Assembly (NCBI GenBank): GCA_012270585.1 | Contig: JAAXIB010000032.1 | Location: 1-62,496 of the forward strand | Direction: 5' to 3' | From: Nitrospirales bacterium | GTDB taxonomy: Bacteria; Nitrospirota; Nitrospiria; Nitrospirales; UBA8639 | DNA: 62,496 nucleotides | Shown: piece by piece, positions 9,490-47,162 of the stretch | How the letters are laid out: every line of letters begins with the position of its first letter | Position numbering within the stretch: the stretch's first letter is position 1 | Position numbers and translations under genes: made by a program | Notes under the pieces: generated by a model | What the model saw: the letters and a program-made list of their open reading frames with translations, nothing else | Databases searched by the model: none | What the model was told of the DNA's origin: nothing

Positions 9490-10587
9490 TCAGTCTTCTG
9501 ACCCGTCTCCCCCTTTCCACAATTTCACCGTGCGGTCCCAGGAGGCGCTGGCGAGATACCGGGCGTCCGGGGAAAAGGCAATGCCTCGAACGGGGCCTCT
9601 GTGGTCCTTGATCACGCGAACCTGTCTTCTGGTCTGAATGTCCCACATCTTAATGGTGTGGTCGTCACTACAGCTCACCAGGAGTTTCCCATCCGGAGAA
9701 ACGAGCAATCCTCGAACCCATTCGGAATGTCCTTTAACGGTGTGGACCTCTTTCATGTCGGGCATCTCGAAATATTTCATCGCAGCGTCTCGACTTCCGG
9801 TAATCATGGTTTTTCCATCCGGCGTAAAAGCAATCGCGCCTACCCAATACTCCATTGGTTTTTGAAATCCACCCTGGTCATCGACAAAAAATCCTCGCTG
9901 TTCGGTCTCTTCATCATCGGGCTCATCACGCCAATGGCCGTTATGCACGAGTTTCTCTTCTCCACTCGGCAGGACTTCATATAACTTCAATTTGCCGATG
10001 TCGCTTCCGCCTACCAGATGAATGCCATCGGGAGAAAACGCGGTGCAGACCGTCCAATTATGGTCATATTGATCTTTGCCGAGGAGCGTCATGACTTCGG
10101 TCCCGGTGGTGATTTCCCAGATCTTTATATCTTTATTCTGTCCGGCCCGAGCCAGCATCAGACCATCCGGGGAGAAGGAGAGGCTGGAGACCGCGTGATC
10201 ATATTGGGTAAAAAGAAGCCGTATCGTCTCCCCCGAGTGAGGGTTCCAGAGCCGGATGGTCCTGTCGTCACTGCCGGTTGCGAGTATCTGGCCGTCTGGA
10301 CTGAAGGCGACTTGCCGTATATCGTTGGTGTGCCCTTTCAAGGATTTGAGAAGGCGACCGGTTTCAATTTCCCAGATGCGGAGAAACCGATCCGCGCCTC
10401 CGCTGACGAGCGTCAATCCGTCAGGGGAATACGCCACGTCCCAGACGCCGTGAGAATGGCCCCGAAAGGTCCGGACTTCGTGAATACCCGCCTTCCAATA
10501 CTCCAAGGCATCGATGGGTGACAATTCAGGTTTCGGGTCTTCCGTGAATTCCGAGGGTGCAATGTTTGGGAATGGGGGGTGATTCAT
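9490..10587 (-). CDS. WD40 beta-propeller protein
   Basis: This 365-residue protein consists of about seven WD40 blades, for example GHSHGVWDVAYSPDGLTLVSGGADRFLRIWE, written here only in part, plus VAFSPDGQILATGSDDRTIRLW and IAFSPDARYLASASWDRTVKLW. It has no signal peptide or catalytic motif, so a cytoplasmic protein-interaction platform is likely. It is divergent from the HExxH gene and convergent with the sigma-54 regulator. The start ATG is preceded on its strand by AAGGACG. The partner is unknown. Confidence 0.9.
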   Translation of the reverse strand: MNHPPFPNIAPSEFTEDPKPELSPIDALEYWKAGIHEVRTFRGHSHGVWDVAYSPDGLTLVSGGADRFLRIWEIETGRLLKSLKGHTNDIRQVAFSPDGQILATGSDDRTIRLWNPHSGETIRLLFTQYDHAVSSLSFSPDGLMLARAGQNKDIKIWEITTGTEVMTLLGKDQYDHNWTVCTAFSPDGIHLVGGSDIGKLKLYEVLPSGEEKLVHNGHWRDEPDDEETEQRGFFVDDQGGFQKPMEYWVGAIAFTPDGKTMITGSRDAAMKYFEMPDMKEVHTVKGHSEWVRGLLVSPDGKLLVSCSDDHTIKMWDIQTRRQVRVIKDHRGPVRGIAFSPDARYLASASWDRTVKLWKGGDGSED

Positions 10588-10791: not shown

Positions 10792-11793
10792 ATGGAAATT
10801 CGATTTCAGCCGGCTTTGCTTCAAGAGGTCATTGATTCTTTCGCCGAAAAAACTGAGCGGGAGGGAGACCCTACCTATTATAACGAATTCCATGAATTAG
10901 CCGATCCGGTGTACGAGAAATTTTCCCTGGACGAGAGGGAACCTGAATTCAAGAAACTCTATCAACACCTCTTTGCCAAGTGGGGCTTTGCCGATATCTT
11001 GAGAGATGGATTTGCGGAATTTCCCGACTTAAAGGAAAAGGTCGGCATTGTCCTCGTTCGCGGTGTGCTGAAAGAAGATCAGGAAGGTGTGGACGTCCTC
11101 AGAAAGTGGGGGACCGTGGAGGAGAAACTGGCTCGTCAATTTGAGGAGAAAGGTCAAAAAGGCGTAGGGATTAAACTGATTCCTCGACGGTTTTACGATC
11201 CGGCCATTAACAGGTATCTCCGCCATGAATTGACGCATGTCTCCGATATGCTCGATCCCGCTTTCGGATATGACCCTGACACGAAAGTTGGCATGAATCC
11301 GGGCGAAGAACATCTCCTTCTGAATCGGTATCGCGTGCTGTGGAGTTTGCACGTCGATAGTCGAATTGCCCGCTTGGGGAAGGAACCGATGTTCAGTCGG
11401 GAATACCGGTTGCGGGAATTTCGTTCCTGGTACCGGAAGATTCCTCCCACGCAAGTCGAGTCGGTGTTCGAAGGGCTCTGGCAGACGGAATATTTCACCC
11501 ATGCCGAATTGGTGGAAATGTCTCAGGATACCCTCCGGGTGATGGAACGGGCGGTCGAAGTCGAAGAAGGTGAATTGCCCGCGGAGGTCCCTGCCAAGCC
11601 CATGCTGATGCCCGGGTTCCCGTGTCCTCTCTGTCGATTCCCCACCTATTCCTGGGTCGAGGATCTTGAAGAAAAGGTTGAACCGTACGTGCTGGATTAT
11701 ATCAGGGAAAATCATCCGGGCTGGGACGTCGAGTACGGTGCGTGTGATCGCTGCGTGGAGGTGTACAGGCTTCGCGCCGCAGGCGTCGTCTAG
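10792..11793 (+). CDS. Unknown protein with HExxH motif and C-terminal zinc ribbon
   Basis: An ATG at 10759 is in frame, but the one at 10792 is preferred because GGAGTGAAAGG sits just before it, giving 333 residues. His145-Glu-Leu-Thr-His149 forms an HExxH motif, the zinc-binding core of many metallopeptidases (RYLRHELTHVSDMLDP). The C-terminus has two CxxC pairs, Cys278/281 (PCPLC) and Cys318/321 (CDRC), spaced like a zinc ribbon. There is no signal peptide or membrane helix. It precedes the ferredoxin and TorD genes, so a role in maturation of the respiratory enzyme is possible. I do not recognise the family. HExxH alone does not prove peptidase activity. Confidence 0.85.
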   Translation: MEIRFQPALLQEVIDSFAEKTEREGDPTYYNEFHELADPVYEKFSLDEREPEFKKLYQHLFAKWGFADILRDGFAEFPDLKEKVGIVLVRGVLKEDQEGVDVLRKWGTVEEKLARQFEEKGQKGVGIKLIPRRFYDPAINRYLRHELTHVSDMLDPAFGYDPDTKVGMNPGEEHLLLNRYRVLWSLHVDSRIARLGKEPMFSREYRLREFRSWYRKIPPTQVESVFEGLWQTEYFTHAELVEMSQDTLRVMERAVEVEEGELPAEVPAKPMLMPGFPCPLCRFPTYSWVEDLEEKVEPYVLDYIRENHPGWDVEYGACDRCVEVYRLRAAGVV

Positions 11794-11907
11794 GACATGA
11801 GCCCATGCCGTCGCGCCTCCTGCACAGGTCGGGGTGAGGGATCGACGGAATGACGTGTTTCTGTGCTCAACCAGCAACACGTTGACCAAATGAAAGAAGG
11901 GCCGTTC

Positions 11908-12561
11908 ATGGCACAATCTCCCCGAGGGTCCTCCAAGAATCCTGAGCCGTCCTACGGGCGAAGGAATTTTCTCAAACAGAGCGTCGTTTCCCTGGGTGTC
12001 ACGGTGCACGAGTACGTCAAGCATCGGGATGCGGAAGACGCCAAGGAGGAACAACCGGACAAAAGACGCCCCGATTGGTTGCGGCCCCCAGGCGCCCTCG
12101 AAGAAGCCCAATTCCTTGAGAGTTGTACGGGCTGTGGTGAATGTGTCGAGGCGTGCCCGCACGAGAGCATTCGCGTCCTCGAAGCAGATCACGTCTCCGA
12201 CGTCCTTGCTCGGAGGGAGACCCCCGTCATCTATCCGGATGAACAACCGTGTTACCTCTGTGAGGATTTCCCGTGCATTGCCGCCTGTGAACCGGAGGCG
12301 CTTCGGCCGGTCGGCGTTCTCAAAGAAGTCAACATGGGGACCGCCGTTGTTTCTCAAAGGATTTGTACGGCCGGGCAAGGCTGTAACGCTTGCGTGGCCC
12401 AGTGCCCGACTCAGGCCATTGGGATGGATTTTGCTTCGCTGTCTATTCGGGTTGAAGGGGACCTGTGTGTCGGGTGCGGGATTTGCGAACATATTTGTAA
12501 GACGGTGAATGATCATATTGCGATAAAGGTCGCTCCGGCGAGATTAGGAACATTGTCTTAA
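11908..12561 (+). CDS. NapG/MauM-like polyferredoxin with Tat-like N-terminus
   Basis: Upstream starts (GTG 11863, ATG 11890) are in frame, but the ATG at 11908 has the best Shine-Dalgarno (GAAGAAGG). The 217-residue product has an RRNFLK Tat-type motif near residue 17, followed by an unusually short hydrophobic stretch. Four cysteine clusters follow: CTGCGECVEACPH, CYLCEDFPCIAACEP, CTAGQGCNACVAQCP and CVGCGICEHIC, enough for about four [4Fe-4S] centres, as in NapG/MauM ferredoxins. A strong intrinsic terminator lies 60 bases after the stop. A likely role is electron transfer to or from the nitrite/nitrate-type molybdoenzyme. Export by Tat is uncertain. Confidence 0.88.
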   Translation: MAQSPRGSSKNPEPSYGRRNFLKQSVVSLGVTVHEYVKHRDAEDAKEEQPDKRRPDWLRPPGALEEAQFLESCTGCGECVEACPHESIRVLEADHVSDVLARRETPVIYPDEQPCYLCEDFPCIAACEPEALRPVGVLKEVNMGTAVVSQRICTAGQGCNACVAQCPTQAIGMDFASLSIRVEGDLCVGCGICEHICKTVNDHIAIKVAPARLGTLS

Positions 12562-12622
12562 GTTGAGAGGCGTATATGACTCGACGCCCCCATGGAAAAC
12601 GGGTAAAAACCTCTGAATTGTT

Positions 12623-12645
12623 TACGGGGTGGGCCCCGTATTTTT
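12623..12645 (+). terminator. Intrinsic terminator after the ferredoxin gene
   Basis: TACGGGG (12623-12629) pairs perfectly with CCCCGTA (12634-12640) over a 4-base loop, followed by five T. It separates the HExxH-ferredoxin unit from the TorD-NxrC unit. The rest of 12646-12794 holds no gene and probably contains the TorD promoter. Confidence 0.85.
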
Positions 12646-12794
12646 AACTGGTACTGGTTTTAGACCTTGACTTCGATCAGAAGTTGGCCTATTATCTGTC
12701 TCCGCACTTCTGGTGGAGAGGAGACTCAGGAGGAGCTATGGTTATTGCAAAGCAAGGGAACAGAGATCGTTCCTGTTGAGAGAAGAGGAGGTTT

Positions 12795-13757
12795 ATGGCC
12801 ACGAAAGTCACGGGAGAACAAAGCGGGAGTTCATCAACGTCTTCCGTCACTCAACAAGTTGGGTCGTCCTTGAAAGATTCCCCGGCTGTTGAACGGGCTT
12901 TAGCCAGAAGTAAGCTGTATCTTCTTCTCTCCTGGAGTTATCTTTATCCCGAAGATGATGAATTTTTGGATTATCTGCAAAGTGGAGAGTTGGTTGAAGA
13001 TGGACGAGCCGCACTCAACAGTTTGAGAGCGGCCTTGTCGACTCCCATTGATAAGGAAACCGAAGAAGTCTTAAAGGGGATTGCGGACCATTTCGACGCG
13101 GTGGAGCATTGGGTGTCATCGGAGGGAGTCAATTGGGACATCCAAGACCTGAGAGACGAACATCGAAGGGTGTTCAGTAACGTCATTGCCTTGGACTGCC
13201 CGCCGTATGAAACCCTGTTTGGAAACGATCACGTGTTTGGCCAATCCTACGTCATGGGAGACATCGCCGGATTCTATTCGGCTTTTGGCGTTCAGCTTTC
13301 TCAAGACATCCATGAACGTTTGGACCATTTGAGTGTGGAACTTGAATTCTTGCATTTCCTGGCCTACAAAGAATCGTATGCGTTGTGCCATGATGGCCCG
13401 GAAAAACTCAAAACGGTGGTCGAGGCCGAAAAAAAATTCGTAAAGGAGCACGTGGGAAGATGGGTTCCTCTGTTTTCCGGCATGTTGAAGAAAAAAGCGG
13501 AGTATGGTTTCTATAAAAGCGTTGCGGATTTAACGTCACAATGGGTGGCTTTTGAAATTGCCTATTTGGGCGTGAGTCCTCAACCGTATTCCGAAACAGA
13601 TTATCGTCCGGCGAATTTTGTCTCTCCCGAGGGGCTGTCTTTTGAATGTGGGGCGCAGGATAAAGGCAATGAACTCAGTCTTTTGATGAATGAGGTGGGG
13701 GCTCAGGCCTATTTGGACAAAGAGAAACCGGAGTCTGGGCAATCAGGTACGGCGTAG
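12795..13757 (+). CDS. TorD/NarJ-type molybdoenzyme chaperone
   Basis: The 320-residue protein starts at an ATG preceded by GAGGAGG. The central block DEHRRVFSNVIALDCPPYET followed by GFYSAFGV is typical of the TorD/NarJ (nitrate reductase delta) family, which binds the alpha-subunit signal peptide and assists insertion of the molybdenum cofactor before Tat export. It is longer than typical TorD proteins (about 200 residues), with a Ser/Thr-rich N-terminus of about 30 residues and an extended C-terminus. It lies directly upstream of an NxrC-like gene, so its client is probably NxrA, encoded elsewhere. Confidence 0.88.
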   Translation: MATKVTGEQSGSSSTSSVTQQVGSSLKDSPAVERALARSKLYLLLSWSYLYPEDDEFLDYLQSGELVEDGRAALNSLRAALSTPIDKETEEVLKGIADHFDAVEHWVSSEGVNWDIQDLRDEHRRVFSNVIALDCPPYETLFGNDHVFGQSYVMGDIAGFYSAFGVQLSQDIHERLDHLSVELEFLHFLAYKESYALCHDGPEKLKTVVEAEKKFVKEHVGRWVPLFSGMLKKKAEYGFYKSVADLTSQWVAFEIAYLGVSPQPYSETDYRPANFVSPEGLSFECGAQDKGNELSLLMNEVGAQAYLDKEKPESGQSGTA

Positions 13758-13869
13758 ATCACATAACATAATCGTGAGGAAGTTGTCGGTGTCTGTAGTG
13801 CAGTTTTAGAAGAAGTAGGCAGTCCGCAGTCATTTTGTTTTAATCTTTATCAAAGGAGGATGCGTCATT

Positions 13870-14823
13870 ATGAGAGTGGTGCAGACGCGTAACAAAGGAT
13901 TGGTGTTCGGCATTCTTCTCTCTGCCTTGGTCGTCGGCGTGATGTTGACGATGGGGCAGGTCCCTTTGGCCGTCAGCCAGCCGGTGACGATTCCGGTGGG
14001 CAGCATTAGCGGGCCGATCCCGATGGACGCGGCCAACCCGGTGTGGGAAACAGTGCCCGGAATCGTGGTGCCCTTGAGCGGTCAAACGATTACGACCCCC
14101 ATGCATCCCAATATCTCGGTGAAGACCGTCATGGTCAAAATGGCCACCAACGGCAAGGAGATTGGGGTGTGGGCCAACTGGGGTGATCAAACCCTGAACA
14201 ACACCACGATCGGCCCGCAGGATTTCCGCGATCAGGTGGCTGTGCAATTTCCCGTCCAAACGTCTGGAGCGCCGCCGTTCCAATGTATGGGGCAATCCGG
14301 TGGCACGGTGAACATCTGGCGCTGGAATGCGGAATGGCAACGGGATATGGGCGCGGGCGTTGCGGGGATGTGGGACGTAGATCAGCAATATCCCTCGATC
14401 GCCTGGGACTTTTACTATGAAGAGCCGGCTGGGGGCGTGACCTATCCGGACCGGATCGGCCGGAGCTTGGGGCCGTTCAATCCGGGGATTTGGTCGGGCA
14501 ACATCATGTCGGATCCTGATTTGCGGGCCAGTTCGGTGGAAGATCTGAATGCGAACGGGTTCAGCACGTTGACGACTCAGGCGTCGCAGGACGTGCTGGG
14601 CAATGGGCTGTGGGAGCCGTACGGCGCGTTGAAAGGCGGGTGCTGCAGCGGCCCGACGTGGCGCGTGGTGATGAAGCGGGCGTTGGCGACGAATGACGCC
14701 AATGACGTGCAATTCGGCGCCGGCCAGAGCATCCCGGTAGCGTTTGCGGTGTGGGATGGCCAGAACGTGGAGCGGAACGGCATGAAGGGCATCTCCACTT
14801 GGTTCACCGCCAAGATGCCGTAA
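13870..14823 (+). CDS. nxrC: NxrC-like heme b subunit (copy 1)
   Basis: An AAAGGAGG ribosome site precedes the ATG. Residues 1-37 form a signal peptide or anchor (basic start, hydrophobic 10-35). The mature part resembles the gamma subunit of type II DMSO reductases (ethylbenzene dehydrogenase gamma, NxrC): FQCMGQSGGTVNIWRWNAEWQ, SSVEDLNANGFSTLT and WRVVMKRAL. Family members bind heme b and pass electrons between the catalytic AB dimer and cytochrome c. The same landmarks occur in the copy at 20530. It follows the TorD chaperone and is closed by a strong terminator, so these two genes may be their own unit. The exact enzyme (nitrite oxidoreductase rather than another DMSO-family enzyme) is inferred from context. 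Confidence 0.82.
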   Translation: MRVVQTRNKGLVFGILLSALVVGVMLTMGQVPLAVSQPVTIPVGSISGPIPMDAANPVWETVPGIVVPLSGQTITTPMHPNISVKTVMVKMATNGKEIGVWANWGDQTLNNTTIGPQDFRDQVAVQFPVQTSGAPPFQCMGQSGGTVNIWRWNAEWQRDMGAGVAGMWDVDQQYPSIAWDFYYEEPAGGVTYPDRIGRSLGPFNPGIWSGNIMSDPDLRASSVEDLNANGFSTLTTQASQDVLGNGLWEPYGALKGGCCSGPTWRVVMKRALATNDANDVQFGAGQSIPVAFAVWDGQNVERNGMKGISTWFTAKMP

Positions 14824-14857
14824 GCTGTACTGAATCTTTTTGCCGTAGCGAGTTGAA

Positions 14858-14905
14858 GAGACCCTGGGGTCCTCCTGAAAGTGAGGAGGACGTCAGGGTC
14901 TTTTT
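14858..14905 (+). terminator. Strong intrinsic terminator after NxrC copy 1
   Basis: GACCCTG (14860-14866) pairs with CAGGGTC (14894-14900), with an inner CCTCCT/AGGAGG stem, followed by five T (14901-14905). Confidence 0.92.
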
Positions 14906-14991
14906 ACGTGTAGAGTGTTTTTCGAGCAAACCTTGTGCGGGAATCCTCAATCCGATGAGTGTGTCTGAAGAGTATCCGGCCCTTCGTAGAG

Positions 14992-15021
14992 TTGCATAAG
15001 AAACCGGAAGCCGTGTATAAG
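14992..15021 (+). promoter_or_regulatory. Candidate promoter for the radical SAM operon
   Basis: TTGCAT (14992-14997) and TATAAG (15016-15021) are separated by 18 bases, after the NxrC terminator and about 100 bases before the radical SAM start. This leaves a leader of roughly 90 bases in which I see no ORF. Confidence 0.4.
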
Positions 15022-15119
15022 AATTATTGATTTTTCAGCGTATGATTGTACGAACGAAACATGTCGATGATGACGTATATCTTCATGGGACGCGGGAACA
15101 CTTCATGTAAGGAGGCAAT

Positions 15120-16895
15120 GTGAAAATCTCTTTGCTATTTCCTCCAAGTTGGCATCCCTCACAACCCTACCTGAGTCTTCCGTGCTTAACGGCTTTTCTT
15201 GACCAAGCCGGCATTGCCGACAAAAGTCAACGGGACTTGAACATTGAACTCCTGGACACGATTCTGTCGAGAACCTATGGCTTGGAAGTCTATGAAAAGC
15301 TTGTCGAAAAACTGAAGCAATTGGAGCATTCACGTGAACGAGAGACGGGACCGGGAAGTAACGAACATTACGGTCGGATCGTGGAAGCCTTGGATCGGTT
15401 TCCACACTTGATCGATCAGATTGAGCCGGCCAAAGCTTCACTGCGGGGAGAAGAGTTCTATGATATCGAGCGTTACCGGGAATGCCTGTTTTTAATCGAT
15501 CGTTGGTTGGAAGTGGTCTCTTCGAGTTATTTCCCAACCAGGATTACCGTGGTCGACAACCAGTTTTCCTATTCCATATATTCCTCGCGAGACATTCTCA
15601 AAGCGATTCACGACGAAGAACAAAATCCGTATCTGGACTTGTATCGACAACATTTTCTCTCTTCCATCGTTGATAAAAACCCGGAATTGATTGGCATATC
15701 GATCACCGCAACGTCCCAGATCATTCCCGGCCTCACCTTGTGCCGGCTCATCAAGGAAGCGAATCCCGACATTCACGTGACCGTTGGCGGCAGTATCTTT
15801 ACCAGGCTTGTGGACAATCTGCGTCGATGTGATCGGCTGTTCCAGGTCACGGATGATTTTATCGTCTTCGAGGGAGAGACGGCTTTATTGGAGTTGGTGA
15901 ATCAATTGGAAGGGAAAAAGAATTTTGCCAAAGTTCCGAATCTCATCTATCGGGAAAATGGAAAGGTTATTGTGAATCAGCCGTTTTATTCCGAGAACTT
16001 GGCTCAACATCCGGCTCCCAATTACGACGGATTTCCTCTCGACCGGTATCTCGCCCCCAAGACGGTCCTGCCGGTGCAGTTTTCACGAGGTTGTTACTAC
16101 AAGGACTGTGCCTTTTGCGCCTTGACGTTGGACCATCAGAATTTTCGCCAAAAAGATCCCATCAAGGTTGTGGACGAACTCCAGTCGCTTGCCCAAAGAT
16201 ATGACACACCCTTTTTCTTCTTTACCGATGAATGTCTGGCCTTATCGCCCACCCGCCGGCTGTGTAAAGAAATCCTGAAACGACAATTCGACATTCAATG
16301 GACGGCTGAACTTCGTTTTGAGAAGAATCTCTCTAGAGAGTTACTGTCCTTGATGCGAGATGCCGGGTGCCATAAAATTGTGTTTGGATTGGAAACATAC
16401 AATAAGCGGATGATGGACTTTATGCAGAAAGGCATTACCCAGGAGAACGTCGACCGGATTTGTTCGGATTGTGTGGACTTGGGTATCGGCGTCCATTGCT
16501 ATATCATCGTCGGCTTCCCGACTGAAACGGAAGAAGAAGCCCGGGAAACCATGAACTTTGTATTGGAGAATACCAAATTGAATGCGTCTTATGGGTTTTC
16601 ATGCCAGCCCTGTCTCTTCGATCTTGAAAAAGAAGCCCCCATTATGAGCGATCCGGGCGGCTACGGGATCCAGCGCATCATGCGTCCGGCCGCGGAAGAT
16701 TTAAGCTTGGGCTTTTTCTATGAAGTCAAGCAGGGCATGACACCTGAACAGGCCGAAAAACTGTATCAACACGTGTACGAAAAAATCAGTGAAGTGGTCG
16801 TGGAATTGCCTTTTAATTATTCGATGGCTGATGGATTGTTGTACATCGCCCGACACAAACAACAACATGCTCCGGAATTCACTGCCGTTTCTTAA
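15120..16895 (+). CDS. B12-binding-domain radical SAM enzyme
   Basis: The start is a GTG at 15120, with TAAGGAGG seven bases upstream; the overlapping ATG at 15118 would stop at once. The 591-residue protein has an N-terminal region with a cobalamin-binding-like fold (about 150-290, including IGISITATSQIIPGL and NPDIHVTVGGS). A radical SAM domain follows with Cys325, Cys330 and Cys333 in RGCYYKDCAFC, i.e. Cx4Cx2C rather than the textbook Cx3Cx2C, a spacing also seen in other cobalamin radical SAM proteins. Such enzymes methylate or rearrange unactivated carbons or modify peptides. The substrate is unknown. Co-direction with the membrane, TPR and TatA genes suggests a cofactor or protein modification tied to the respiratory complex, which is inference. 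Confidence 0.88.
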   Translation: MKISLLFPPSWHPSQPYLSLPCLTAFLDQAGIADKSQRDLNIELLDTILSRTYGLEVYEKLVEKLKQLEHSRERETGPGSNEHYGRIVEALDRFPHLIDQIEPAKASLRGEEFYDIERYRECLFLIDRWLEVVSSSYFPTRITVVDNQFSYSIYSSRDILKAIHDEEQNPYLDLYRQHFLSSIVDKNPELIGISITATSQIIPGLTLCRLIKEANPDIHVTVGGSIFTRLVDNLRRCDRLFQVTDDFIVFEGETALLELVNQLEGKKNFAKVPNLIYRENGKVIVNQPFYSENLAQHPAPNYDGFPLDRYLAPKTVLPVQFSRGCYYKDCAFCALTLDHQNFRQKDPIKVVDELQSLAQRYDTPFFFFTDECLALSPTRRLCKEILKRQFDIQWTAELRFEKNLSRELLSLMRDAGCHKIVFGLETYNKRMMDFMQKGITQENVDRICSDCVDLGIGVHCYIIVGFPTETEEEARETMNFVLENTKLNASYGFSCQPCLFDLEKEAPIMSDPGGYGIQRIMRPAAEDLSLGFFYEVKQGMTPEQAEKLYQHVYEKISEVVVELPFNYSMADGLLYIARHKQQHAPEFTAVS

Positions 16896-16964
16896 TCGCG
16901 AAGAACCGCCTGTGTATTCTCAGCGATGATCTGACGGAAAAGAGAAGGCAAAGGCGGAACGCAT

Positions 16965-18074
16965 ATGACGGCAGCGACGACATCGGGTCACGAAAGCGGG
17001 ACTAATCCCGGTATCCTGTTTGAATATGCGCTGAAGTTTTTCCTGCTTTCGGCTTTTTTGGAACTCGTTCTCTATCGCTTGGCCTCGCGGTTGGGCATGC
17101 ACATGGCCAAGCTCGCCGAAAAATCCGAAGCCGTCAGACTGACGTTTCAAACGCTCTCCTCCCTCGGATTTGTTCTTCTCAACGTCACCTCTATTCTGCT
17201 GTTCCTGGTCCTGTTCATTTTGCTGATTCAAAAATTGCGGGAATCGGTATGGTCGGGTCGATTTGACGGGTTCCTGGTTCCGGCCGTCTCATTGCTTGTC
17301 GTGTTGACCGTTGTCTATCTCCTCTTTCCCCCCGCCATGGTGGGTGCGGTCGTCTATAATCTCGTGTCTTTGGTGATTCTTGCCATCCTGATGGCGGAAT
17401 TTTGGGTGACGCATCGTCTTTGGGCACAACGTGTCACCGTGGGGTGTTTTTTGTTGGGCATTATCGGATGGATTTACTACCAGACGGTGTCCACGACCTA
17501 TGGGTTGTTGGGCATTGTTGCTCCGCCGCCTCTCGTGAATGAAATCAGTCGGGGGGGTGAAGCCCTCATGGTCCTGGCGAGTATCCTGGTTTTGTGGTCG
17601 TACGGCAGCATGTCGTTCTTTACCAAGAATAAAACCCAACGGAAATGGGCTGCGACCCTTCTTCTCAGCGGGAGCGCGACCTTTTTGGTGTTGCTCTACA
17701 TCGATTTTTTCCTGTCATTGTATAGTCCCGCGCTGGCCGAAGACGCGAGAAAGGCAGGGCAGGGGATCGGCTGGGTGTTTCAAATGGGCATGGGATATAC
17801 TTTTTATTTACCCTTTGCCCTCTATATGGCAGGCTTTACATGTTGGGCGTACACTGTCATTAAACTGGTGTTGATCGGTCGTTTGGCGGGGTACGGCTTG
17901 GGGTTGATGTTCATGGCAGGATATGCCTTGCAATTGTCACATTTGACGTTGATGGTGGTTGTCGGGTTCATGCTGATGACGCTTGATAAGCGGGGTACGC
18001 TGGGAAAATTACGCAATAAAGCAGGAACGGTGGCCTATTCCCCGGTAACTCCTGCGTTCAGTCATATACGGTGA
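16965..18074 (+). CDS. Polytopic membrane protein of unknown function
   Basis: The 369-residue protein has about nine or ten hydrophobic helices, with short basic loops such as KNKTQRK. I recognise no family motif. There are few His or Met residues placed like heme ligands in the helices, so a NarI-like role is not evident. It lies 70 bases after the radical SAM gene, and its stop overlaps the upstream GTG of the TPR frame, so the three are probably one operon. It may be the membrane partner of the periplasmic NxrC-like proteins or of the TPR protein. Confidence 0.8.
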   Translation: MTAATTSGHESGTNPGILFEYALKFFLLSAFLELVLYRLASRLGMHMAKLAEKSEAVRLTFQTLSSLGFVLLNVTSILLFLVLFILLIQKLRESVWSGRFDGFLVPAVSLLVVLTVVYLLFPPAMVGAVVYNLVSLVILAILMAEFWVTHRLWAQRVTVGCFLLGIIGWIYYQTVSTTYGLLGIVAPPPLVNEISRGGEALMVLASILVLWSYGSMSFFTKNKTQRKWAATLLLSGSATFLVLLYIDFFLSLYSPALAEDARKAGQGIGWVFQMGMGYTFYLPFALYMAGFTCWAYTVIKLVLIGRLAGYGLGLMFMAGYALQLSHLTLMVVVGFMLMTLDKRGTLGKLRNKAGTVAYSPVTPAFSHIR

Positions 18075-18091
18075 GAGGATATGTAACGATC

Positions 18092-18892
18092 ATGGAATCA
18101 GAACGTGTCGCAACAGAGAAAGAGGGCGAAGTGGTTGAACCGCAGGCTCAGGAGCAGCCGTTGACTCCGGATGAAGAGATTGCAGAACTTGAAAAGTTGC
18201 TCAGTGAAGAACCTGACGATTTTCAAGCCCGTTGCCGGCTGGGCGAACTGTATTTTGGAAAAGGGAAACTGGAAGACGCCTTGACCGAAGTCAAAAAGGC
18301 CGTAGAAATGGCCGAGGGGTTGAGAACGGAGATGGACCGCTCCCTGGCCATGTATTATTCAAACCTGGGAACGATCTACGGCACCAAGGGCATGATGGAT
18401 GATGCACGTCCTCAATTTGAGCGAGCATTGGAGTTGAACAAATATGACGTGTTGGCCCTGTTCAATCTGGGAAGGCTCCATCATGATAAGAAAGAGTATA
18501 TGCAGGCAAAGGAGTACTTCGAACGATTAATCGAAATTACCCCTGAAGATCCGATCGCCTGGTATAATTTGGCTGGAGTCTATGAACAGTTGGATAATCC
18601 TCAAGTATCGGATTACAACACCCTTGATATGGCCGTTCAAGCCTATATGAAGGTGTTGGAATTCGATCCCAAACATTTGGAATCCAGTTTTAAACTCATG
18701 GACATTGCGTTTACATTGAAAAAATCAGACATGGCTGTAAAAATCATGGAAGAAGCCGTTGAGCACAGCCCGGATGAGCCGTTGGCGTATTACAACCTCA
18801 TCAATACCTATGAGAAGTGTAAAATGTTTGAACAGGCTGAAGGGGCGCGACAACGGTTAAAGCAAAGGTTTGCGAAACGAGCCCGCGAATAA
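18092..18892 (+). CDS. TPR-repeat protein
   Basis: A GTG at 18071 is in frame and overlaps the preceding stop. The ATG at 18092, with GAGAGGAT upstream, is the better start (266 residues). A charged Glu-rich N-terminus is followed by five or six tetratricopeptide repeats, e.g. [40 protein letters not shown] and [14 protein letters not shown]. It has no signal peptide. TPR proteins scaffold complex assembly, and its place between a membrane protein and TatA suits a cytoplasmic assembly factor. Confidence 0.85.
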
Positions 18893-18924
18893 GGGCATTT
18901 TTGTCCCAAAAGGAGAAATCGATC

Positions 18925-19230
18925 ATGTTTGGAAGTTTAGGCTTTACCGAGTTGATTCTGATACTCTTCATCGTTCTGATTATATTCGGCGCCGGGAAAT
19001 TGCCGCAGCTTGGTGAAGGGGTCGGGAAGGCGATAAAGGGCTTCAAAAAATCCGTGAATGAAGCCGAAGCCATTGAGCACGAAGCGCACAATTTAGCGGA
19101 GCAGCAGAACCAAGCTCCGGTGAGTCCGCAAGGCGCAGACGTGGCACCGTCGCCGGTTCCGCAAAGTGATCAAACGGTTTCTCCAATACAAGCCTCTCAA
19201 TCAGAGCCGGCTCAGACGTCCAAGAGTTAA
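18925..19230 (+). CDS. tatA: Twin-arginine translocase subunit TatA/E
   Basis: The start is the ATG at 18925, preceded by AAAGGAG; the in-frame TTG at 18901 is rejected. The 101-residue product shows the TatA signature: an N-terminal helix ([20 protein letters not shown]), the hinge [17 protein letters not shown] and a polar, Pro/Gln/Ser-rich tail. TatA forms the variable-size Tat pore that exports folded cofactor proteins. No tatB or tatC is adjacent. Lying between TPR and NHL genes of the respiratory cluster, it may supply Tat capacity for the NxrAB-type enzyme. Confidence 0.93.
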
Positions 19231-19266
19231 TTTTCTGCGGTTCTGACGTGAGAACAGGAGTGCGGT

Positions 19267-20520
19267 ATGGAAACGAGCGTAGAGTCACCGGTTGGAAGAA
19301 TTGAAACGTTTGCGGGAAACGGGAAATCTCGAAGCACGGGTGACGGGAAACGTGCGAAGAAAGCCGGGATTCCCTTACCCAATCATATTTGTGTCGACAA
19401 GGAGGGCCGTTGGCTCTACATAGCTGAAAACGGGTCCGACCGGGTTCGACGGATCGATTTGGAAGCCGGGACCATTCATAACTATGCAGGTATTGGAGAG
19501 ACCTGTTACAGCGGGGATTACGGTCCTTGTGGAGAAGCGGGTCTGTACCTGCCTTTGAGCGTGGCAATTGATTCCAACAACGATTTGTACATTTGTGATT
19601 CCGGAAGTAATCGCGTTCGCAAAGTCGATCACGAGACCGATATTATTACCACGGTCGTGGGTTCCGGAGAGTCCGGCTTTAATGGTGACGGCCCGGCGTT
19701 GGAAGTCAACTTGACTTATCCCGGGGCGATTGCATTCGATTCGGAAGACAATCTGTATATTGCGGATACCCAAGCCCATCGTATTCGGAAATACGATCCT
19801 CGAACGGGTTTGGTGACCACCATTGCGGGGACGTGGTCCAGAGCCGATGAAGACTGGATCAGCCCATTGACCGCACAAAACCTGGTCGTGCTTTCCGGTG
19901 ACGCGATTGGCATTGACTTTAGCGATGATCAAGGATGGCTTCGCCCGCAATGTTCGGATAATTTGGATCTGTCCCCCTATCTTGACGACGGCCGTCCGGC
20001 GCTTGAAGCGAAACTCTGGGACATCGTGGCGATTGACGTGGACTCATGCGGGAACGTGTTTCTCACGGATAAAGCCAGCAACCGCATCCGAAAGATTGAT
20101 GCCCAAACGGGCATGATTTCGACCGTCGCCGGGGTCTGTCGTTTTGGATATGATGGAGATGGAAAACCCGCAGTGAGGTCCATGTTGAACGTACCGGAGG
20201 CGGCCATTGTCGATCAGGAGGCGAACGTCTATATTGCCGATTCGATGAATCACCGCATCCGCAAAGTGGATCGCACCACGGGCCTGATCGAGACCATTGC
20301 GGGGAACGGAGACAGTGGATACGAGGATAAAAACATGGGAGGGTGTGGCGCCGCGCGCTTTGTGGCCAAAGAAGATGCGGGTATGCTGAAACATGGTGAC
20401 GGGAACCTCGCCGTCGATGCGGTGGTGAATGCCCCGTCAGGCTTGGCCCTTGACGGTCAAGGTCATCTCTATATTTGTGAACGCAACGAAAATAAAGTCC
20501 GGCGCGTCAAACTCTGGTAA
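19267..20520 (+). CDS. NHL-repeat beta-propeller protein
   Basis: The 417-residue protein has about six NHL repeats, each with an LYIADSxNHRIRKVD-type strand followed by TTVAGxGxxGYxGDG (e.g. DLYICDSGSNRVRKVD, NVYIADSMNHRIRKVD). Two insertions interrupt the propeller (about 190-240 and 355-380), the second rich in Gly and charged residues. No convincing signal peptide is present (start METSVESPVG), which is unusual because many NHL proteins are exported. NHL propellers usually bind proteins or act in sensing. It lies 36 bases after tatA and 9 bases before NxrC copy 2. Confidence 0.9.
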   Translation: METSVESPVGRIETFAGNGKSRSTGDGKRAKKAGIPLPNHICVDKEGRWLYIAENGSDRVRRIDLEAGTIHNYAGIGETCYSGDYGPCGEAGLYLPLSVAIDSNNDLYICDSGSNRVRKVDHETDIITTVVGSGESGFNGDGPALEVNLTYPGAIAFDSEDNLYIADTQAHRIRKYDPRTGLVTTIAGTWSRADEDWISPLTAQNLVVLSGDAIGIDFSDDQGWLRPQCSDNLDLSPYLDDGRPALEAKLWDIVAIDVDSCGNVFLTDKASNRIRKIDAQTGMISTVAGVCRFGYDGDGKPAVRSMLNVPEAAIVDQEANVYIADSMNHRIRKVDRTTGLIETIAGNGDSGYEDKNMGGCGAARFVAKEDAGMLKHGDGNLAVDAVVNAPSGLALDGQGHLYICERNENKVRRVKLW

Positions 20521-20529
20521 GGATGGCAG

Positions 20530-21423
20530 ATGAGTGAAACGGTTTGTCCAAACAATGGAAATGGTCCGGTGAAATCGAAACGAACCCTTCCCCGCTCTCT
20601 GATCGTGACGGGATCAGGCATTCTGTTGCTGGCGGTGGTGCTTGGCTGGCTTGGCATTCCCGCGGTGAGTTCTCAAGGGATTGTCATCCGCTCCCATTTT
20701 ACGGAAGGCACGATTCCGACGAAGCCGGATGATGCGGCATGGGAGACGATCGCGCCCATTCCCATTCCGCTGAGCGGCCAGATCATTACTCGACCGGTTT
20801 GGCCCGAACCCAGCGCCAAAGTCATCTCGGTCCGGTCGGTTCACAATGGCAAGGATATCTCATTCCTGGTGGAATGGCAGGATGCGACCAAAAACGAACG
20901 GCTGACCCCCGGGGTGTTTCGTGACGGGGCGGCCCTGGCCCTCCCCCTGGGTAATGCACCGGCGTTTTTCTGCATGGGCCAATTGGATCACTACGTGAAT
21001 ATCTGGCATTGGAAAGCGGATTGGCAAAGCGATGTGGATCGCAGAAAAGCCAGGGCCAAGGAAAGAGGACGCAAAAAAAGAGGCATTCGAAAGTTTGAAG
21101 TCATCCCTCGCCGGCCCTCCTCGGTTGAAGATCTCATCGGTGGCGGGTTCAGTACGTTGACGAGCAAGATCCGGCAAGGCAAGGTCAAGGGAGAAGCCGA
21201 ATGGAAAAACGGGTTTTGGCGAGTCGTCATGAAGCGTCCACTAACCAAATCTGGAGATGACACGGAGAATGAAGCCCTTCTGGTCCCCGGCCGCATGCAA
21301 GCCGTGGCCTTTGCCGTCTGGAACGGTGAGAATAAAGAAAGGAACGGACAAAAAGCGGTGGCGTCGTGGCTCCAACTGCTGGTCGATCCCGTGGGTGGCC
21401 CAATGGCTTCGACGAAATCATGA
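20530..21423 (+). CDS. NxrC-like heme b subunit (copy 2)
   Basis: This 297-residue paralogue of the gene at 13870 shares the order WETI.PIPLSGQIIT, FFCMGQLDHYVNIWHWKADWQ, SSVEDLIGGGFSTLT, WRVVMKRPL and AVAFAVWNGE.KERNGQK. It has a longer polar N-terminus (about 21 residues) before a single hydrophobic helix (about 26-48), so it is a membrane-anchored or long-signal-peptide periplasmic protein. An Arg/Lys-rich insertion (RRKARAKERGRKKRG) replaces an acidic loop of copy 1. It is grouped with PDZ and multiheme cytochrome genes rather than with the chaperone, which suggests a different partner. Heme binding is inferred from family membership. Confidence 0.78.
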   Translation: MSETVCPNNGNGPVKSKRTLPRSLIVTGSGILLLAVVLGWLGIPAVSSQGIVIRSHFTEGTIPTKPDDAAWETIAPIPIPLSGQIITRPVWPEPSAKVISVRSVHNGKDISFLVEWQDATKNERLTPGVFRDGAALALPLGNAPAFFCMGQLDHYVNIWHWKADWQSDVDRRKARAKERGRKKRGIRKFEVIPRRPSSVEDLIGGGFSTLTSKIRQGKVKGEAEWKNGFWRVVMKRPLTKSGDDTENEALLVPGRMQAVAFAVWNGENKERNGQKAVASWLQLLVDPVGGPMASTKS

Positions 21424-21492
21424 ATTATCGATAGCCCAACGTTTTGCTCACGTGTTTCTCTATTATCTCCCTACCATGAAGGTCGAAAGACG

Positions 21493-21921
21493 ATGATCAG
21501 ATGGACTCTCAGTGCCGTTTTGGTGATGTGGATCAGTGGCCTTGTGTGGGCGCCTTTCCTCTCTTTTGCAGAAGACATGACGGAGGATCGCGCCTATGCC
21601 TTGGCGGAAGAGTTTGGAATCGACGTTGGCGAAGTCGATGAGGAGATCAAAGAAATTCTTGGCCTTACCAAGGCTGAAGGCGTGGTGGTTTTTGGAGTGA
21701 TTGGAAGCTCACCGGCAGATCGTGCCGGTATAAAAGTCAAGGCCGTCATCAAAGAGGTGGACGGGAAAGACATCCGGAACTTGCTGGATCTGGGAAAGGC
21801 GCTTGAAAAGTCGCTGCCGACGCAGAATTTTTCGGTAGCGACGTTTGAACCAGCCGGTATCGATGACCAGGGCGTCGGTGGTGGGATGAATTTCCACTTC
21901 GTGCGCGTTGAGAAGGATTAG
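21493..21921 (+). CDS. Small periplasmic PDZ-domain protein
   Basis: This 142-residue protein has a cleavable signal peptide (about 1-26, hydrophobic, ending LSFAE) and one PDZ domain (about 50-135: GVVVFGVIGSSPADRAGIK, then VIKEVDGKDIRNLLDLGKAL). No protease domain is attached. PDZ domains bind C-terminal tails, so this may be an adaptor holding the neighbouring cytochromes or NxrC-like protein. Its TAG stop overlaps a GTG start candidate of the next gene. Confidence 0.85.
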   Translation: MIRWTLSAVLVMWISGLVWAPFLSFAEDMTEDRAYALAEEFGIDVGEVDEEIKEILGLTKAEGVVVFGVIGSSPADRAGIKVKAVIKEVDGKDIRNLLDLGKALEKSLPTQNFSVATFEPAGIDDQGVGGGMNFHFVRVEKD

Positions 21922-21929
21922 TGAGAACC

Positions 21930-23288
21930 ATGCCAGTCTTTCGAAACGACGGGAACCGCAAGAAGAAACGTGGGAAAATGAGATGCCGCGTGCTGATGGT
22001 TCTGATGGGAATACTGTGGGTCCCTCTCCCCTGCGCGAATGCGCAGGAAGCCCCGCAAGTCCCTGAAACACACAAGTGGATCAAGGAAATAGAAGAAGTC
22101 TTTTTGCCTTCCGATCATTGCAAGCAATGTCATGATCGTCACTACGAGGAATGGAAAGGGATGCGGGAGCAAACTCCTGACCTCAAAACGTTCGGGCGCG
22201 TGGATGGGGCCCTGTTACATGGGACCGCGCTGACGTCTCCCGTGTTCAAAACCGTCCTCGGCCTGTGGCTGCAAACGAAACCGACCGCAGAAGAAAAAAC
22301 TCGATGCCTGTCGTGCCATGCGCCCGCGGTTACGGTTTTTCCCCAACATACGGAAAACATCATCGCTCAGGTCCTGTCGGAAAAGCCGAAAAAGCGAGGC
22401 AGACGAGCGAAGAAGACTCATGGAGTTGAAGGGATCAGTTGTTCGTCCTGTCACCTGATTGATTCGGTACGTGAGGATAGCGCGGACTTCCCGGCGTTTA
22501 AGATCAATCCGGGAAACACCTTTTTCGGGCCCTATGCCAATGCCGAAGAGAACCTCGTGCATCCCTCAAAACAGGCTACGGTATACAAGGGCGCTCAATT
22601 TTGTGCTTCCTGTCACTTCAGTAAAGTCAAGGACGTGACCAAGGCCGACTTGCCCGGACAGATTCTGAAAGGGACGATTTGTCAGGATTGCCACATGGAG
22701 CGGTCGACCGGGAGTTCCACCTCCAAACGTGGCTCGCTGACGCGGCCCATCGGACGACATTGGTTTCAAGGGATTGTGATCCCGGGTATCATGCTGAGCA
22801 ATCGAAACCTGCAAGCCGAGTGGTTCCCACGGGTGGATCTTGAGGTGGGGCAATCGGGGAATGGCATTGAAGGCAGGGTGTTGGTCAGGAATGGGAGTCT
22901 TCCCCACGTGTTTCCCGGTGGTGATCCCGTGCTGAAGCAGTTTTTCGTGACAGTCACCGTCAAGGACGCTGAGGGGCACGTACTGGGGACCCAAGAGGAA
23001 CGATTCGGATTGCCGTTTAAGCAAATCCTGCGTGGGCCGATTCCGAAACCGCTCGTCAATGGCGGAACAACGCGGAAAGTGCCGTTCTCCATACAAGTCA
23101 AGGAAGGCACCGCGCCGAGTTACGTGGAGACCTCCCTGAATTATGCCTTAATCCCCAAACCAAGCCAAGCCTTGATCGATCAATATCTCGAGACTCTGGA
23201 ACGCAAACGGGAGAAAAAGAAAGCCATGAAAATCATTGAGGACTATTCATCGCGACGACTTCTGACGTTCCGGACGAAATCCTTATAA
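21930..23288 (+). CDS. Pentaheme c-type cytochrome (first of pair)
   Basis: In-frame starts exist at GTG 21921, ATG 21930 and ATG 21978; all precede a signal peptide (MRCRVLMVLMGILWV, then CANA). Five CxxCH motifs are present: CKQCH, CLSCH, CSSCH, CASCH and CQDCH, all in the N-terminal 55 percent. The last ~170 residues are beta-rich and heme-free. The layout resembles cytochrome c554-like multiheme proteins, though c554 has four hemes. It is followed within 50 bases by a paralogue. Likely role: periplasmic electron carrier serving the NxrC-type enzyme. The electron acceptor is unknown. Confidence 0.88.
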   Translation: MPVFRNDGNRKKKRGKMRCRVLMVLMGILWVPLPCANAQEAPQVPETHKWIKEIEEVFLPSDHCKQCHDRHYEEWKGMREQTPDLKTFGRVDGALLHGTALTSPVFKTVLGLWLQTKPTAEEKTRCLSCHAPAVTVFPQHTENIIAQVLSEKPKKRGRRAKKTHGVEGISCSSCHLIDSVREDSADFPAFKINPGNTFFGPYANAEENLVHPSKQATVYKGAQFCASCHFSKVKDVTKADLPGQILKGTICQDCHMERSTGSSTSKRGSLTRPIGRHWFQGIVIPGIMLSNRNLQAEWFPRVDLEVGQSGNGIEGRVLVRNGSLPHVFPGGDPVLKQFFVTVTVKDAEGHVLGTQEERFGLPFKQILRGPIPKPLVNGGTTRKVPFSIQVKEGTAPSYVETSLNYALIPKPSQALIDQYLETLERKREKKKAMKIIEDYSSRRLLTFRTKSL

Positions 23289-23337
23289 TGAGCCACTTTT
23301 TTCACGAATGCCAACCTGATTAATTAAGGGCGACTTC

Positions 23338-24588
23338 ATGCATAAAATTTTCCAGGCAATAGGTTGGGCCATCGGTGTGTTCGTGGTGACCAATGTATTC
23401 ATGGTTGCAGTTGATGTTCCTGTGCCCCAAACAGTGGCCGCTCAGAAGAGTTCAAAGAAACCGTTCACAAAGGCGTTTCCCGATTCCCAGAAATGCAAGC
23501 GGTGTCATTTGCGAGTGTTTGAAGAATGGGAGGCTTCCGCCCAATCCCGGTCAATTCTGAGTTCTCCCTTTCGCGTCTCGTTGGAACGTTACCGGGAGAC
23601 ATCCGGTGATAAGGAAGGCAGAATGTGTTTCCGATGCCACGCGCCGAGCGTGTTGGAGTATCCGGACCATACGGGCGTCTATATCAAGGAAATCGAATCC
23701 GGTGATCCAAGGTTGGACGGGGTCGGGTGTTCTCAATGCCACCTGATCAAAAACGTGGATCCCAAACAGCATCCTCCGCATCCGATCTACCAACTGGAGC
23801 GGACCGTCTTCGGGAGCTATAAAAAACCGGTGGAAAACCTGGCGCATCAATCCGTCCCCACGGAACTCTACAGCCAATCACAGTACTGCGTGACCTGTCA
23901 TGAAAATTTGCCGGGCCATGAAAAACTTCCGGACTTGCTGGGTCCCTGGCAGGAGACCAAAACCCAAAAGGCAGGAAAAAATTGTCAGTCGTGCCATATG
24001 CCCGAGGCCTTTGGTGAGTCGGCCAATGGAGAGCGGAATCGCAAAATTTCAAACCACAGTTTCCCCGGCCGTTTTGGCAAAGTGCGTGCCGATGCCGTGA
24101 AGGTGGAAGTCAAGACCGAAGTCAAAGGCAAGGAATCCGAAGTCAAGGTCACGGTCCAGAGCCTGGTCCCGCATAATCTTCCGTTACCCCATCCGGGGTG
24201 GTCTCGCGTGGAACTCGACTTAACGATCCTGGGGAAAAATTTGCGAAAAGCCTACGTTGAAAAACGCTACTATGAACGGGTGTTCGGCACAAAAGACGGA
24301 AAAGCCACCATCTTCGACTTTGAAGCCGTTAAGGTGTTGAAAGAGAACGTGCTCAAACCTGAAGAAAAGCGGGTTGAAACGTTTACCTTCCCGACTCCCC
24401 AGAATGCCCCATCCATGGACGTAATCGTCACCATGACCTATGCCCCCATTTACGGGCCTGAAGCGTTTGTGAAAGAAGTCGAACAACGGGCTGCCCTGGG
24501 GAAAAAAGATCGGGCATTCAAGCCGGTCCAAATCATCAGGTACAAAGAAAATATTCTCTTAAAGGACTTCAAGAAAGCCGCAGGATAA
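23338..24588 (+). CDS. Pentaheme c-type cytochrome (second of pair)
   Basis: The 416-residue protein has a signal peptide (about 1-35) and five CxxCH motifs (CKRCH, CFRCH, CSQCH, CVTCH, CQSCH). Order and spacing match the preceding cytochrome, including shared flanks FEEWEAS/YEEWKGM, CHAPSV/CHAPAV, CSQCHLI/CSSCHLI and CHMPE/CHMER. It also has a heme-free beta-rich C-terminal domain. The pair arose by duplication and probably acts in series or as a dimer. It ends the co-directional respiratory block; the next gene runs the other way. Confidence 0.88.
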   Translation: MHKIFQAIGWAIGVFVVTNVFMVAVDVPVPQTVAAQKSSKKPFTKAFPDSQKCKRCHLRVFEEWEASAQSRSILSSPFRVSLERYRETSGDKEGRMCFRCHAPSVLEYPDHTGVYIKEIESGDPRLDGVGCSQCHLIKNVDPKQHPPHPIYQLERTVFGSYKKPVENLAHQSVPTELYSQSQYCVTCHENLPGHEKLPDLLGPWQETKTQKAGKNCQSCHMPEAFGESANGERNRKISNHSFPGRFGKVRADAVKVEVKTEVKGKESEVKVTVQSLVPHNLPLPHPGWSRVELDLTILGKNLRKAYVEKRYYERVFGTKDGKATIFDFEAVKVLKENVLKPEEKRVETFTFPTPQNAPSMDVIVTMTYAPIYGPEAFVKEVEQRAALGKKDRAFKPVQIIRYKENILLKDFKKAAG

Positions 24589-44383: not shown

Positions 44384-44508
44384 CGCAGTGATCAAAGTTC
44401 GCCATCCAGGTTGATTCTCGGCAAGTTTTTGACATTCTGCCCTTGACTCAATCGTTAGATTCGCAAACCAACTATTATACAGGCCCCACAAAACCAAACG
44501 AAGAATAG

Positions 44509-46617: not shown

Positions 46618-46811
46618 AATCGATTGATTTATCCGTCTTGCCAGAATGGGCGCGCCAGGAAGTGTATGATTTCTTTCTGTTCATGAAACAGCGCATCGAA
46701 CATCAACGGGTATTATCAAACGTCAGCGAGTGTGCTTTGCTCAGCGAAGACAGTCTGGCGGAAGATTGGAATAGATCAGAGGAAGACGAGGCATGGAAAA
46801 ATTTTCAGTAG
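46605..46811 (+). CDS. Antitoxin-like small protein (DUF2281-like)
   Basis: The 68-residue protein has GGAGGG before its ATG, which lies inside the end of hsdM. The pattern LSVLPEWARQEVYDFFLFM resembles DUF2281-type antitoxins, and an acidic tail (LAEDWNRSEEDEAW) is suited to cover a toxin. It overlaps the MazF-like toxin by 19 bases, the usual antitoxin-toxin order. Confidence 0.75.
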   Translation: MQSLKSIDLSVLPEWARQEVYDFFLFMKQRIEHQRVLSNVSECALLSEDSLAEDWNRSEEDEAWKNFQ

Positions 46812-47131: not shown

Positions 47132-47162
47132 ATGACTGGGGTTTGGAGTAGATAGGTAAGCT

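Follow-up and report, generated by a model that had tools for sequence, protein, structure and literature searches.

A block of 13 open reading frames (ORFs) in a nitrite-oxidizing Nitrospirales bacterium is, with a probability that we put at roughly 0.85, the gamma-subunit and biogenesis locus of its periplasmic nitrite oxidoreductase (NXR), physically split from the catalytic genes nxrA and nxrB. NXR produces nearly all nitrate in nature. The block occupies positions 10792–24588 of the window, that is, the whole stretch of 62,496 nucleotides analyzed here (contig JAAXIB010000032.1 of GCA_012270585.1; contig C35 of genome G000 in our sample), which belongs to an assembly of 2.50 Mb in 89 contigs that is listed as 100% complete. 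An earlier note on this DNA had described the block as an accessory wiring and assembly module for enzymes encoded elsewhere. Much of this holds, as the block accompanies NXR, the genes for its catalytic partners lie elsewhere, and operons outside the order tie members without an assigned role to the enzyme; the locus is not purely accessory, however, in that it probably also supplies a structural subunit.

Gene content and the catalytic partners

A reading-frame check of the window placed all 13 ORFs on the + strand, and family assignment with Pfam and NCBIfam profiles at their curated cut-offs agreed with the co-directional contents listed in the earlier note. The ORF1 start used there, the ATG at 10792, proved the better one, with homologs aligning from that Met. 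Two of the 13 proteins, ORF1 and ORF6, fall in no family above cut-off. The genes of the block, followed by those upstream of it, are:

10792–11793, + strand: ORF1, candidate factor in NXR biogenesis; predicted zinc protein with an HExxH site and CPLC...CxxC at the C-terminus
11863–12561, + strand: ORF2, NapG/MauM-like multi-[4Fe-4S] ferredoxin with twin-arginine motif GRRNFLK (Pfam Fer4)
12795–13757, + strand: ORF3, TorD/NarJ-family chaperone (PF02613)
13870–14823, + strand: ORF4, NxrC-type heme-b subunit, counterpart of Nitrospira moscoviensis nxrC_2 (EB_dh, PF09459)
15120–16895, + strand: ORF5, B12-binding radical S-adenosylmethionine (SAM) enzyme (Pfam B12-binding and radical SAM)
16965–18074, + strand: ORF6, polytopic membrane protein with eight hydrophobic segments and an invariant RLxSRLGMH motif
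18071–18892, + strand: ORF7, TPR protein (Pfam TPR)
18901–19230, + strand: ORF8, TatA-family protein (TIGR01411)
19267–20520, + strand: ORF9, NHL-repeat protein (Pfam NHL)
20530–21423, + strand: ORF10, second NxrC-type heme-b protein, counterpart of nxrC_1 (EB_dh, PF09459)
21493–21921, + strand: ORF11, exported PDZ-like protein (weak PDZ match, hydrophobic N-terminus)
21921–23288, + strand: ORF12, pentaheme cytochrome c (multiheme c Pfam, five CxxCH)
23338–24588, + strand: ORF13, pentaheme cytochrome c (multiheme c Pfam, five CxxCH)
4855–8034, + strand: PAS-type sensor histidine kinase (best NCBIfam match AtoS, 348.8 bits, under the cut-off of 646)
8034–9476, + strand: NtrC-type sigma-54 response regulator (Pfam Response_reg, Sigma54_activat, HTH_8)
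9490–10587, − strand: WD40 repeat protein, between the regulator and ORF1 (Pfam WD40)

Both NxrC-type proteins exceed the EB_dh cut-off of 33.3 bits (ORF4, 93.7; ORF10, 105.2) and stay below that of the TIGR03477 subfamily (133.0 and 132.7 vs 169.85 bits). Their best PDB match is Kuenenia NXR-C (7b04_C; E 3.5e-30 for ORF4 and 1.1e-25 for ORF10), and the only other sequence matched is the weaker ethylbenzene dehydrogenase gamma subunit (2ivf_C; E 1.7e-10 and 6.6e-13, respectively); a grouping with an unrelated dehydrogenase, which the earlier note had named as evidence that would count against its reading, was thus not seen. The Met of CMGQ and the Lys of RNG[MQ]K, which we take to be the axial ligands of heme b, are kept in ORF4, ORF10 and the NxrC of a distant Nitrospirota genome described below. 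Given that the ORF4 homolog of N. moscoviensis directly follows TorD, that TorD NITMOv2_3625 is paired with nxrC_2 NITMOv2_3624 (PMC6606698), and that NITMOv2_3626 has been named NapG, ORF4 is the counterpart of nxrC_2. Expression of both torD and nxrC_2 in N. moscoviensis (PMC6606698) counts in favor of a role with NXR; among the gamma subunits, nxrC_2 shows the strongest expression, which at 20,365 reads per kilobase per million (RPKM) is on a par with that of the top nxrAB copy. Because of this identity and expression level, the block probably supplies a structural subunit besides helpers, and the label "accessory" does not fit.

The earlier note's observation that nxrA and nxrB are absent from the block was correct. 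No molybdopterin oxidoreductase was matched within the window, and the three PF00384 matches of the genome lie on contigs C43, C22 and C62, with NxrA (63939–67463) and NxrB (62583–63899) both on C62. A complete nxrABC cluster of the anammox type was therefore not found, as the NxrC-like genes are on C35. The NxrA sequence bears a twin-arginine translocation (Tat) signal, SRRQFLK. Further EB_dh genes of this genome encode proteins of ~300 amino acids (C66) and 608 amino acids, the latter of diheme type (C64). This diheme alternative NxrC (locus L012) adjoins an ORF that resembles MobA by eye (VLAGGKSRRMG), which would fit cofactor supply.

The distance between the block and nxrAB, which the earlier note had proposed as a check, could be read in genomes where one contig holds both. 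ORF1 and the nearest NxrA are ~25 kb apart in N. defluvii (G053), ~0.32–0.33 Mb in G027 and G029, 0.44 Mb in G016, 0.5 Mb in G010 (assuming a circular chromosome) and 1.25 Mb in G009. The separation is real, though the spacing varies.

Conservation and co-occurrence with NXR

The window proteins were used to search 20 loci representing 18 of the 19 genera in a 59-genome sample of relatives. Conservation of gene order, which the earlier note had suggested looking for, is far beyond chance: the block is present at all 20 loci, and in 16 of them the 13 genes are complete, with order and strand unchanged. Among the other four, L060 and L061 end at contig ends, L055 ends at an assembly gap of 100 N, and L050 (G017) lacks the TatA gene ORF8, no TatA frame being found from ORF7 to ORF9. 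Upstream, 19 of the 20 loci carry the sensor kinase and the NtrC-type regulator, and all carry the WD40 gene. Thus, the extent of 13 + strand genes given in the earlier note stands for the block itself, but the conserved unit also takes in the two regulatory genes (4855–9476) and the WD40 gene. The chromosomes of N. moscoviensis and N. defluvii share this gene order from the sensor kinase through ORF11, with ORF12 and ORF13 beyond those loci. N. defluvii also has two adjacent full-length ORF5 paralogs outside the block (G053 C1:2721078–2724729; 33%–35% identity).

ORF1 was found in 55 of the 59 relatives (its own genome counted), with 69%–97% identity over its length; an extra match, in G052, covers 155 residues at a contig end (74% identity). 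NxrA was matched in 50 of the same 59 genomes, several of the matches being contig-end fragments, and no NxrA-positive genome lacked ORF1 (0/50). Both were missing from four genomes of genus g13, a clade that is probably family UBA2166, described as the sole family of the order without NXR (PMC12342949). Across the phylum, ORF1 occurred in 138 of 395 genomes, of which all but G089 belong to the order or are closer relatives (137 genomes); six order members in this sample were without it, namely three of g13 and G221, G296 and G382. Of 21 genomes searched for TorD (PF02613), 19 had a single match each and the other two, both of g13, had none; ORF3 is the only PF02613 match of the genome under study. 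With TorD in single copy, this block must be the source of the NXR chaperone.

The successive gaps from ORF1 to ORF13 (69, 233, 112, 296, 69, -4, 8, 36, 9, 69, -1 and 49 bases) suggest three expression groups, ORF1–2, ORF3–4 and ORF5–13. A strict sigma-54 promoter pattern had no site in the window or in C62:50001–70000. Elsewhere in the window, the GC fraction at 44001–50000 is 0.44–0.45, compared with 0.50–0.62 in the remaining 2-kb windows, and this may be a foreign stretch.

NXR operons outside the order

Among the relatives covered, which in the scan of contigs were the best 80 of 182, two lineages outside Nitrospirales have ORF1 beside NXR genes. The first is G089, a 77% complete metagenome-assembled genome (MAG) from another class of Nitrospirota (NC_groundwater_1775). 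Its contig C41 encodes, in order, the C-terminal 250 residues of NxrB (72% identity to NxrB of the genome under study), TorD (37%), NxrC (40% to ORF4, 33% to ORF10) and the N-terminal part of ORF1 (32%), and contig C53 encodes the remainder of ORF1 (40%), a ferredoxin of 96 residues that resembles the C-terminal portion of ORF2, an ORF6 homolog and an Mrp/ApbC-type Fe-S carrier. The two contigs are very probably adjacent, judging by a 47-base overlap with one mismatch. The ORF6 homolog was weak in tblastn (25%, E 3e-4) and missed in larger searches; it was retained because profile comparison by hhalign gave 98.4% (E 8.1e-15 over 280 columns). The Fe-S carrier gene that follows it (L066:1849–2709) is recorded here as a further member of this operon. 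Three genomes of the same class (G064, G073 and G081) have EB_dh proteins and are not among the listed ORF1 matches.

The second lineage is represented by G410, a MAG labelled Latescibacterota (NC_groundwater_1462). Contig C91 carries a small ORF, ORF1 (40%), a 97-residue ORF2-like ferredoxin and NxrA residues 28–674 (55%) up to the contig end, and contig C287 carries NxrA residues 938–1171 (66%), NxrB (65%–68%), TorD (41%) and a diheme cytochrome c fused to EB_dh. The two contigs do not overlap and are putative neighbors. Short ORF2 homologs thus come after ORF1 in both outgroups, and ORF1, ORF2 and ORF6 (the last in G089 only) are tied to NXR by standing beside its genes in two non-Nitrospirales lineages. 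Two other candidate outgroups, L084 (JAHFDH010000084.1, labelled Methylomirabilota) and L087 (WSYB01000066.1, labelled Geobacteraceae), were excluded because they are probably Nitrospirales contigs placed in the wrong bin, with ORF1 ~70% identical and the same gene order. An archaeal MAG has been reported to carry nxrABC and torD (PMC9562985), showing that NXR clusters do move between phyla.

ORF1 and the other helper candidates

ORF1 has no Pfam or NCBIfam match. In an alignment of 48 rows (numbered from the start at 10792; one row, L081, is a fragment), H145, E146, H149 and E172 are invariant and C278, C281, C318 and C321 nearly so. The AlphaFold2 model (predicted local distance difference test, pLDDT, 87.0; predicted template modeling score, pTM, 0.73) places the HExxH in helix 139–154 and E172 in the next long helix, 170–194. 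An HExxH in one helix with a Glu in the following long helix is the gluzincin layout, and ORF1 has both the invariant HExxH and the downstream Glu; from alignment and model, we predict a zinc HExxH protein. Searches of the model for a zincin fold were weak. Foldseek returned a best E of 0.36 and no match at E ≤ 0.001, and VIA-align 2 a best Z of 4.6 (4l7a, root-mean-square deviation 4.3 over 150) and no row at Z ≥ 5. Nine of the first 10 VIA-align rows are peptidases, collagenase, FtsH or HExxH domains (four are IRAP) and the tenth is SjiH-Ni, all at Z < 5 and suggestive at most, while the neighbor 8s5f (Z 4.1) is the HExxH domain of an oxygenase, not a peptidase. Since neither program gave a confident match, a zincin fold is not established. 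In the open-license literature, we found no mention of NITMOv2_3627, the locus searched for ORF1, and no published statement on the HExxH site or the outgroup linkage. The set described as common to Nitrospira, Nitrospina and Kuenenia includes "one putative zinc finger" protein (PMC3578206), which may be an ORF1 relative.

The NapG/MauM models score ORF2 well below their cut-offs (NF007012, 115.4 vs 269 bits; TIGR00397, 94.6 vs 178.85 bits). Its outgroup homologs likewise match NapG models, and ORF2 and the G089 homolog also match NapF, all far under the curated cut-offs. Its counterpart NITMOv2_3626 was counted as periplasmic nitrate reductase NapG, with potential for nitrate reduction (PMC6131200); its place in the block argues for a role with NXR instead, and we caution against taking ORF2 for a periplasmic nitrate reductase component. 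ORF3 is above the PF02613 gathering score (66.4 vs 22.2 bits) and below the type II dimethyl sulfoxide (DMSO) reductase chaperone model TIGR03482 (80.6 vs 152.3 bits). ORF5 is below TIGR03975, a B12-radical SAM C-methyltransferase of ribosomally synthesized and post-translationally modified peptide (RiPP) maturation (161.4 vs 281.85 bits), and ORF8 is above the TatA/TatE model TIGR01411 (64.4 bits, cut-off 53.9). The PDZ evidence for ORF11 is weak, with PF00595 barely above its cut-off and PDZ_2 and PDZ_6 below theirs.

For ORF6, the model (pLDDT 75.1) has ABC exporters, rhodopsins and receptors as neighbors, that is, generic helical bundles, and was set aside as a guide to its fold; a di-heme quinone site is not argued because only a single His (H46) is conserved. 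ORF7 matched only generic TPR proteins in the PDB and was rejected as a counterpart of the Kuenenia tubule subunit NXR-T, a monoheme four-helix bundle (PMC8387239).

Proposed mechanism and alternative explanations

From the gene content, its conservation, the single TorD, and the presence of ORF1, ORF2, ORF6, TorD and NxrC beside nxrA or nxrB elsewhere, we infer a route of NXR biogenesis in which every biochemical step is conditional. NxrA, synthesized with its Tat signal, would be retained by the sole TorD (ORF3) during insertion of the first Fe-S cluster and the molybdenum bis(pyranopterin guanine dinucleotide) cofactor, as extrapolated from NarJ/TorD chaperones, which order these insertions and delay export (PMC10609526). 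ORF2, a NapG/NapF-like ferredoxin, might aid Fe-S or redox supply; in vitro reconstitution of the Fe-S cluster in Rhodobacter NapA is reported to depend on NapF (PMC10609526). The proposed part of ORF1 is a dedicated one, that of checking or processing NxrA or NxrAB. NxrAB would then be exported by Tat, with ORF8 as a possible reinforcement, TatA paralogs being in some cases partly substrate-specific (PMC4148689). NxrC (ORF4, perhaps ORF10 under other conditions) would be exported separately and then dock, and membrane anchoring and electron transfer may fall to ORF6 and both pentaheme cytochromes. By analogy, then, ORF3 would mature NxrA, ORF2 and ORF1 would assist, and ORF8 would aid export.

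More tentatively, and with the odds somewhat against it, we suggest that ORF1 and ORF2, together with ORF6, make up a cassette devoted to NXR maturation and moving between phyla along with nxrAB. ORF1 would then represent a new type of maturation factor for molybdoenzymes, an HExxH zinc protein proofreading or trimming NxrA or NxrAB ahead of Tat export. In Nitrospirales, the cassette would have been split from the catalytic genes and joined to the B12-radical SAM enzyme and the two pentaheme cytochromes, so that one fixed locus would serve one or several nxrAB copies.

Several observations weigh against assigning the locus to NXR biogenesis. NxrA went unmatched in five of the 55 genomes that have ORF1 (G003, G022, G035, G040 and G054; completeness 98%, 78%, 90%, 99% and 71%, respectively). 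The earlier note had held that the same gene order without any Nxr would speak against its reading, and these five go some way in that direction, although the converse case, NxrA without ORF1, did not occur. Nitrospinota nxr genes, often in several near-identical copies, are difficult to bin (PMC10839748), and nxrA may have been lost from the five during assembly or binning. The joint absence in g13, being confined to one clade, counts as a single event, one loss or gain. Both outgroups are MAGs with short contigs; nxrA was not found in G089 save for a weak match to a 683-residue oxidoreductase, and its NxrB runs off the contig end. ORF1 occurs in one of 16 genomes of the phylum of G410, which fits transfer or a misbinned organism, although identities of 40%–68% mean that this is not a Nitrospirales contig either way. 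Neither outgroup has an ORF5 ortholog (partial matches only, 23%–31%), and ORF7–ORF9 and ORF11–ORF13 were not detected on the outgroup contigs, so that the link of these genes to NXR comes solely from synteny within Nitrospirales. Finally, nxrC_1 is expressed at 354 RPKM, ~57-fold below nxrC_2 (PMC6606698).

We considered whether the block is instead a periplasmic electron-transfer module of NxrC, pentaheme cytochromes, ORF6 and scaffolds, with ORF1, ORF2 and TorD merely sharing its promoter and ORF1 a housekeeping zinc protein. ORF4, ORF6, ORF10, ORF12 and ORF13 are indeed electron-transfer or membrane candidates, and the 233-base (ORF2–ORF3) and 296-base (ORF4–ORF5) gaps suggest three expression sub-units, but ORF1 is missing from the four NxrA-less relatives and adjoins nxrA or nxrB/nxrC in two distant lineages, making this account unlikely. 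That the block serves a molybdoenzyme other than NXR, for which the two further PF00384 proteins (~897 amino acids, on C43 and C22) would be available, is very improbable given that the outgroup operons unite the same genes with nxrA and nxrB, that TorD and the block are absent together with NxrA, and that the NxrC-like proteins match NXR-C best.

Within the biogenesis reading, it is a serious possibility, only a little short of an even chance, that ORF1 is not an enzyme and that its HExxH holds zinc structurally or binds a different ligand, the protein acting as a scaffold or zinc-dependent adaptor in NXR assembly. The lack of a confident structural match, the four C-terminal Cys, which resemble a structural zinc ribbon, and the oxygenase neighbor 8s5f all point this way; the invariance of the catalytic-type Glu E146 and of E172, at gluzincin-like spacing in the next long helix, points the other way.

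Comparison with known systems

The locus itself is already known. Its N. moscoviensis equivalent, NITMOv2_3614–3631, with NxrC, TorD, proteins of unknown function, two pentaheme cytochromes and a two-component system, was named in 2025 as diagnostic of nitrite-oxidizing Nitrospirales (PMC12342949); NITMOv2_3624 (nxrC) and 3626 (NapG) fit ORF4 and ORF2 (PMC6131200). Earlier work noted the nxrC-torD-NapG-like group (PMC8115096) and separate nxrC genes (PMC6606698, PMC8115632). In its available text, PMC12342949 treats the block as a diagnostic gene set and gives neither a role for the members of unknown function nor an outgroup operon. What is new here is the ORF1 prediction, together with the finding that ORF1, ORF2 and ORF6 are tied to NXR genes in two non-Nitrospirales lineages. 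In the open-license literature, we found no discussion of Nitrospira NXR assembly factors other than the presumed TorD, and the set standing beside nxrA or nxrB in two other lineages (TorD, ORF1, ORF2, ORF6 and NxrC) offers a short, testable list for producing active NXR heterologously.

Compared with accessory systems of other molybdoenzymes, ORF2 resembles napF/napG products below the model cut-offs, in a block without nap genes, and ORF3 belongs with TorD/NarJ maturation proteins by PF02613 while falling under the type II DMSO reductase chaperone cut-off. The nxr cluster of Kuenenia (kustd1699–kustd1713) encodes the same enzyme class, and among solved structures, its soluble heme-b NXR-C is closest to ORF4 and ORF10; there, nxrA, nxrB and nxrC lie within one 15-gene cluster, whereas here nxrAB is on another contig (PMC8387239). 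In Nitrospina gracilis, NxrC3 adjoins a TorD-like chaperone, as in the block described here, but nxrABC form operons in that organism (PMC3578206).

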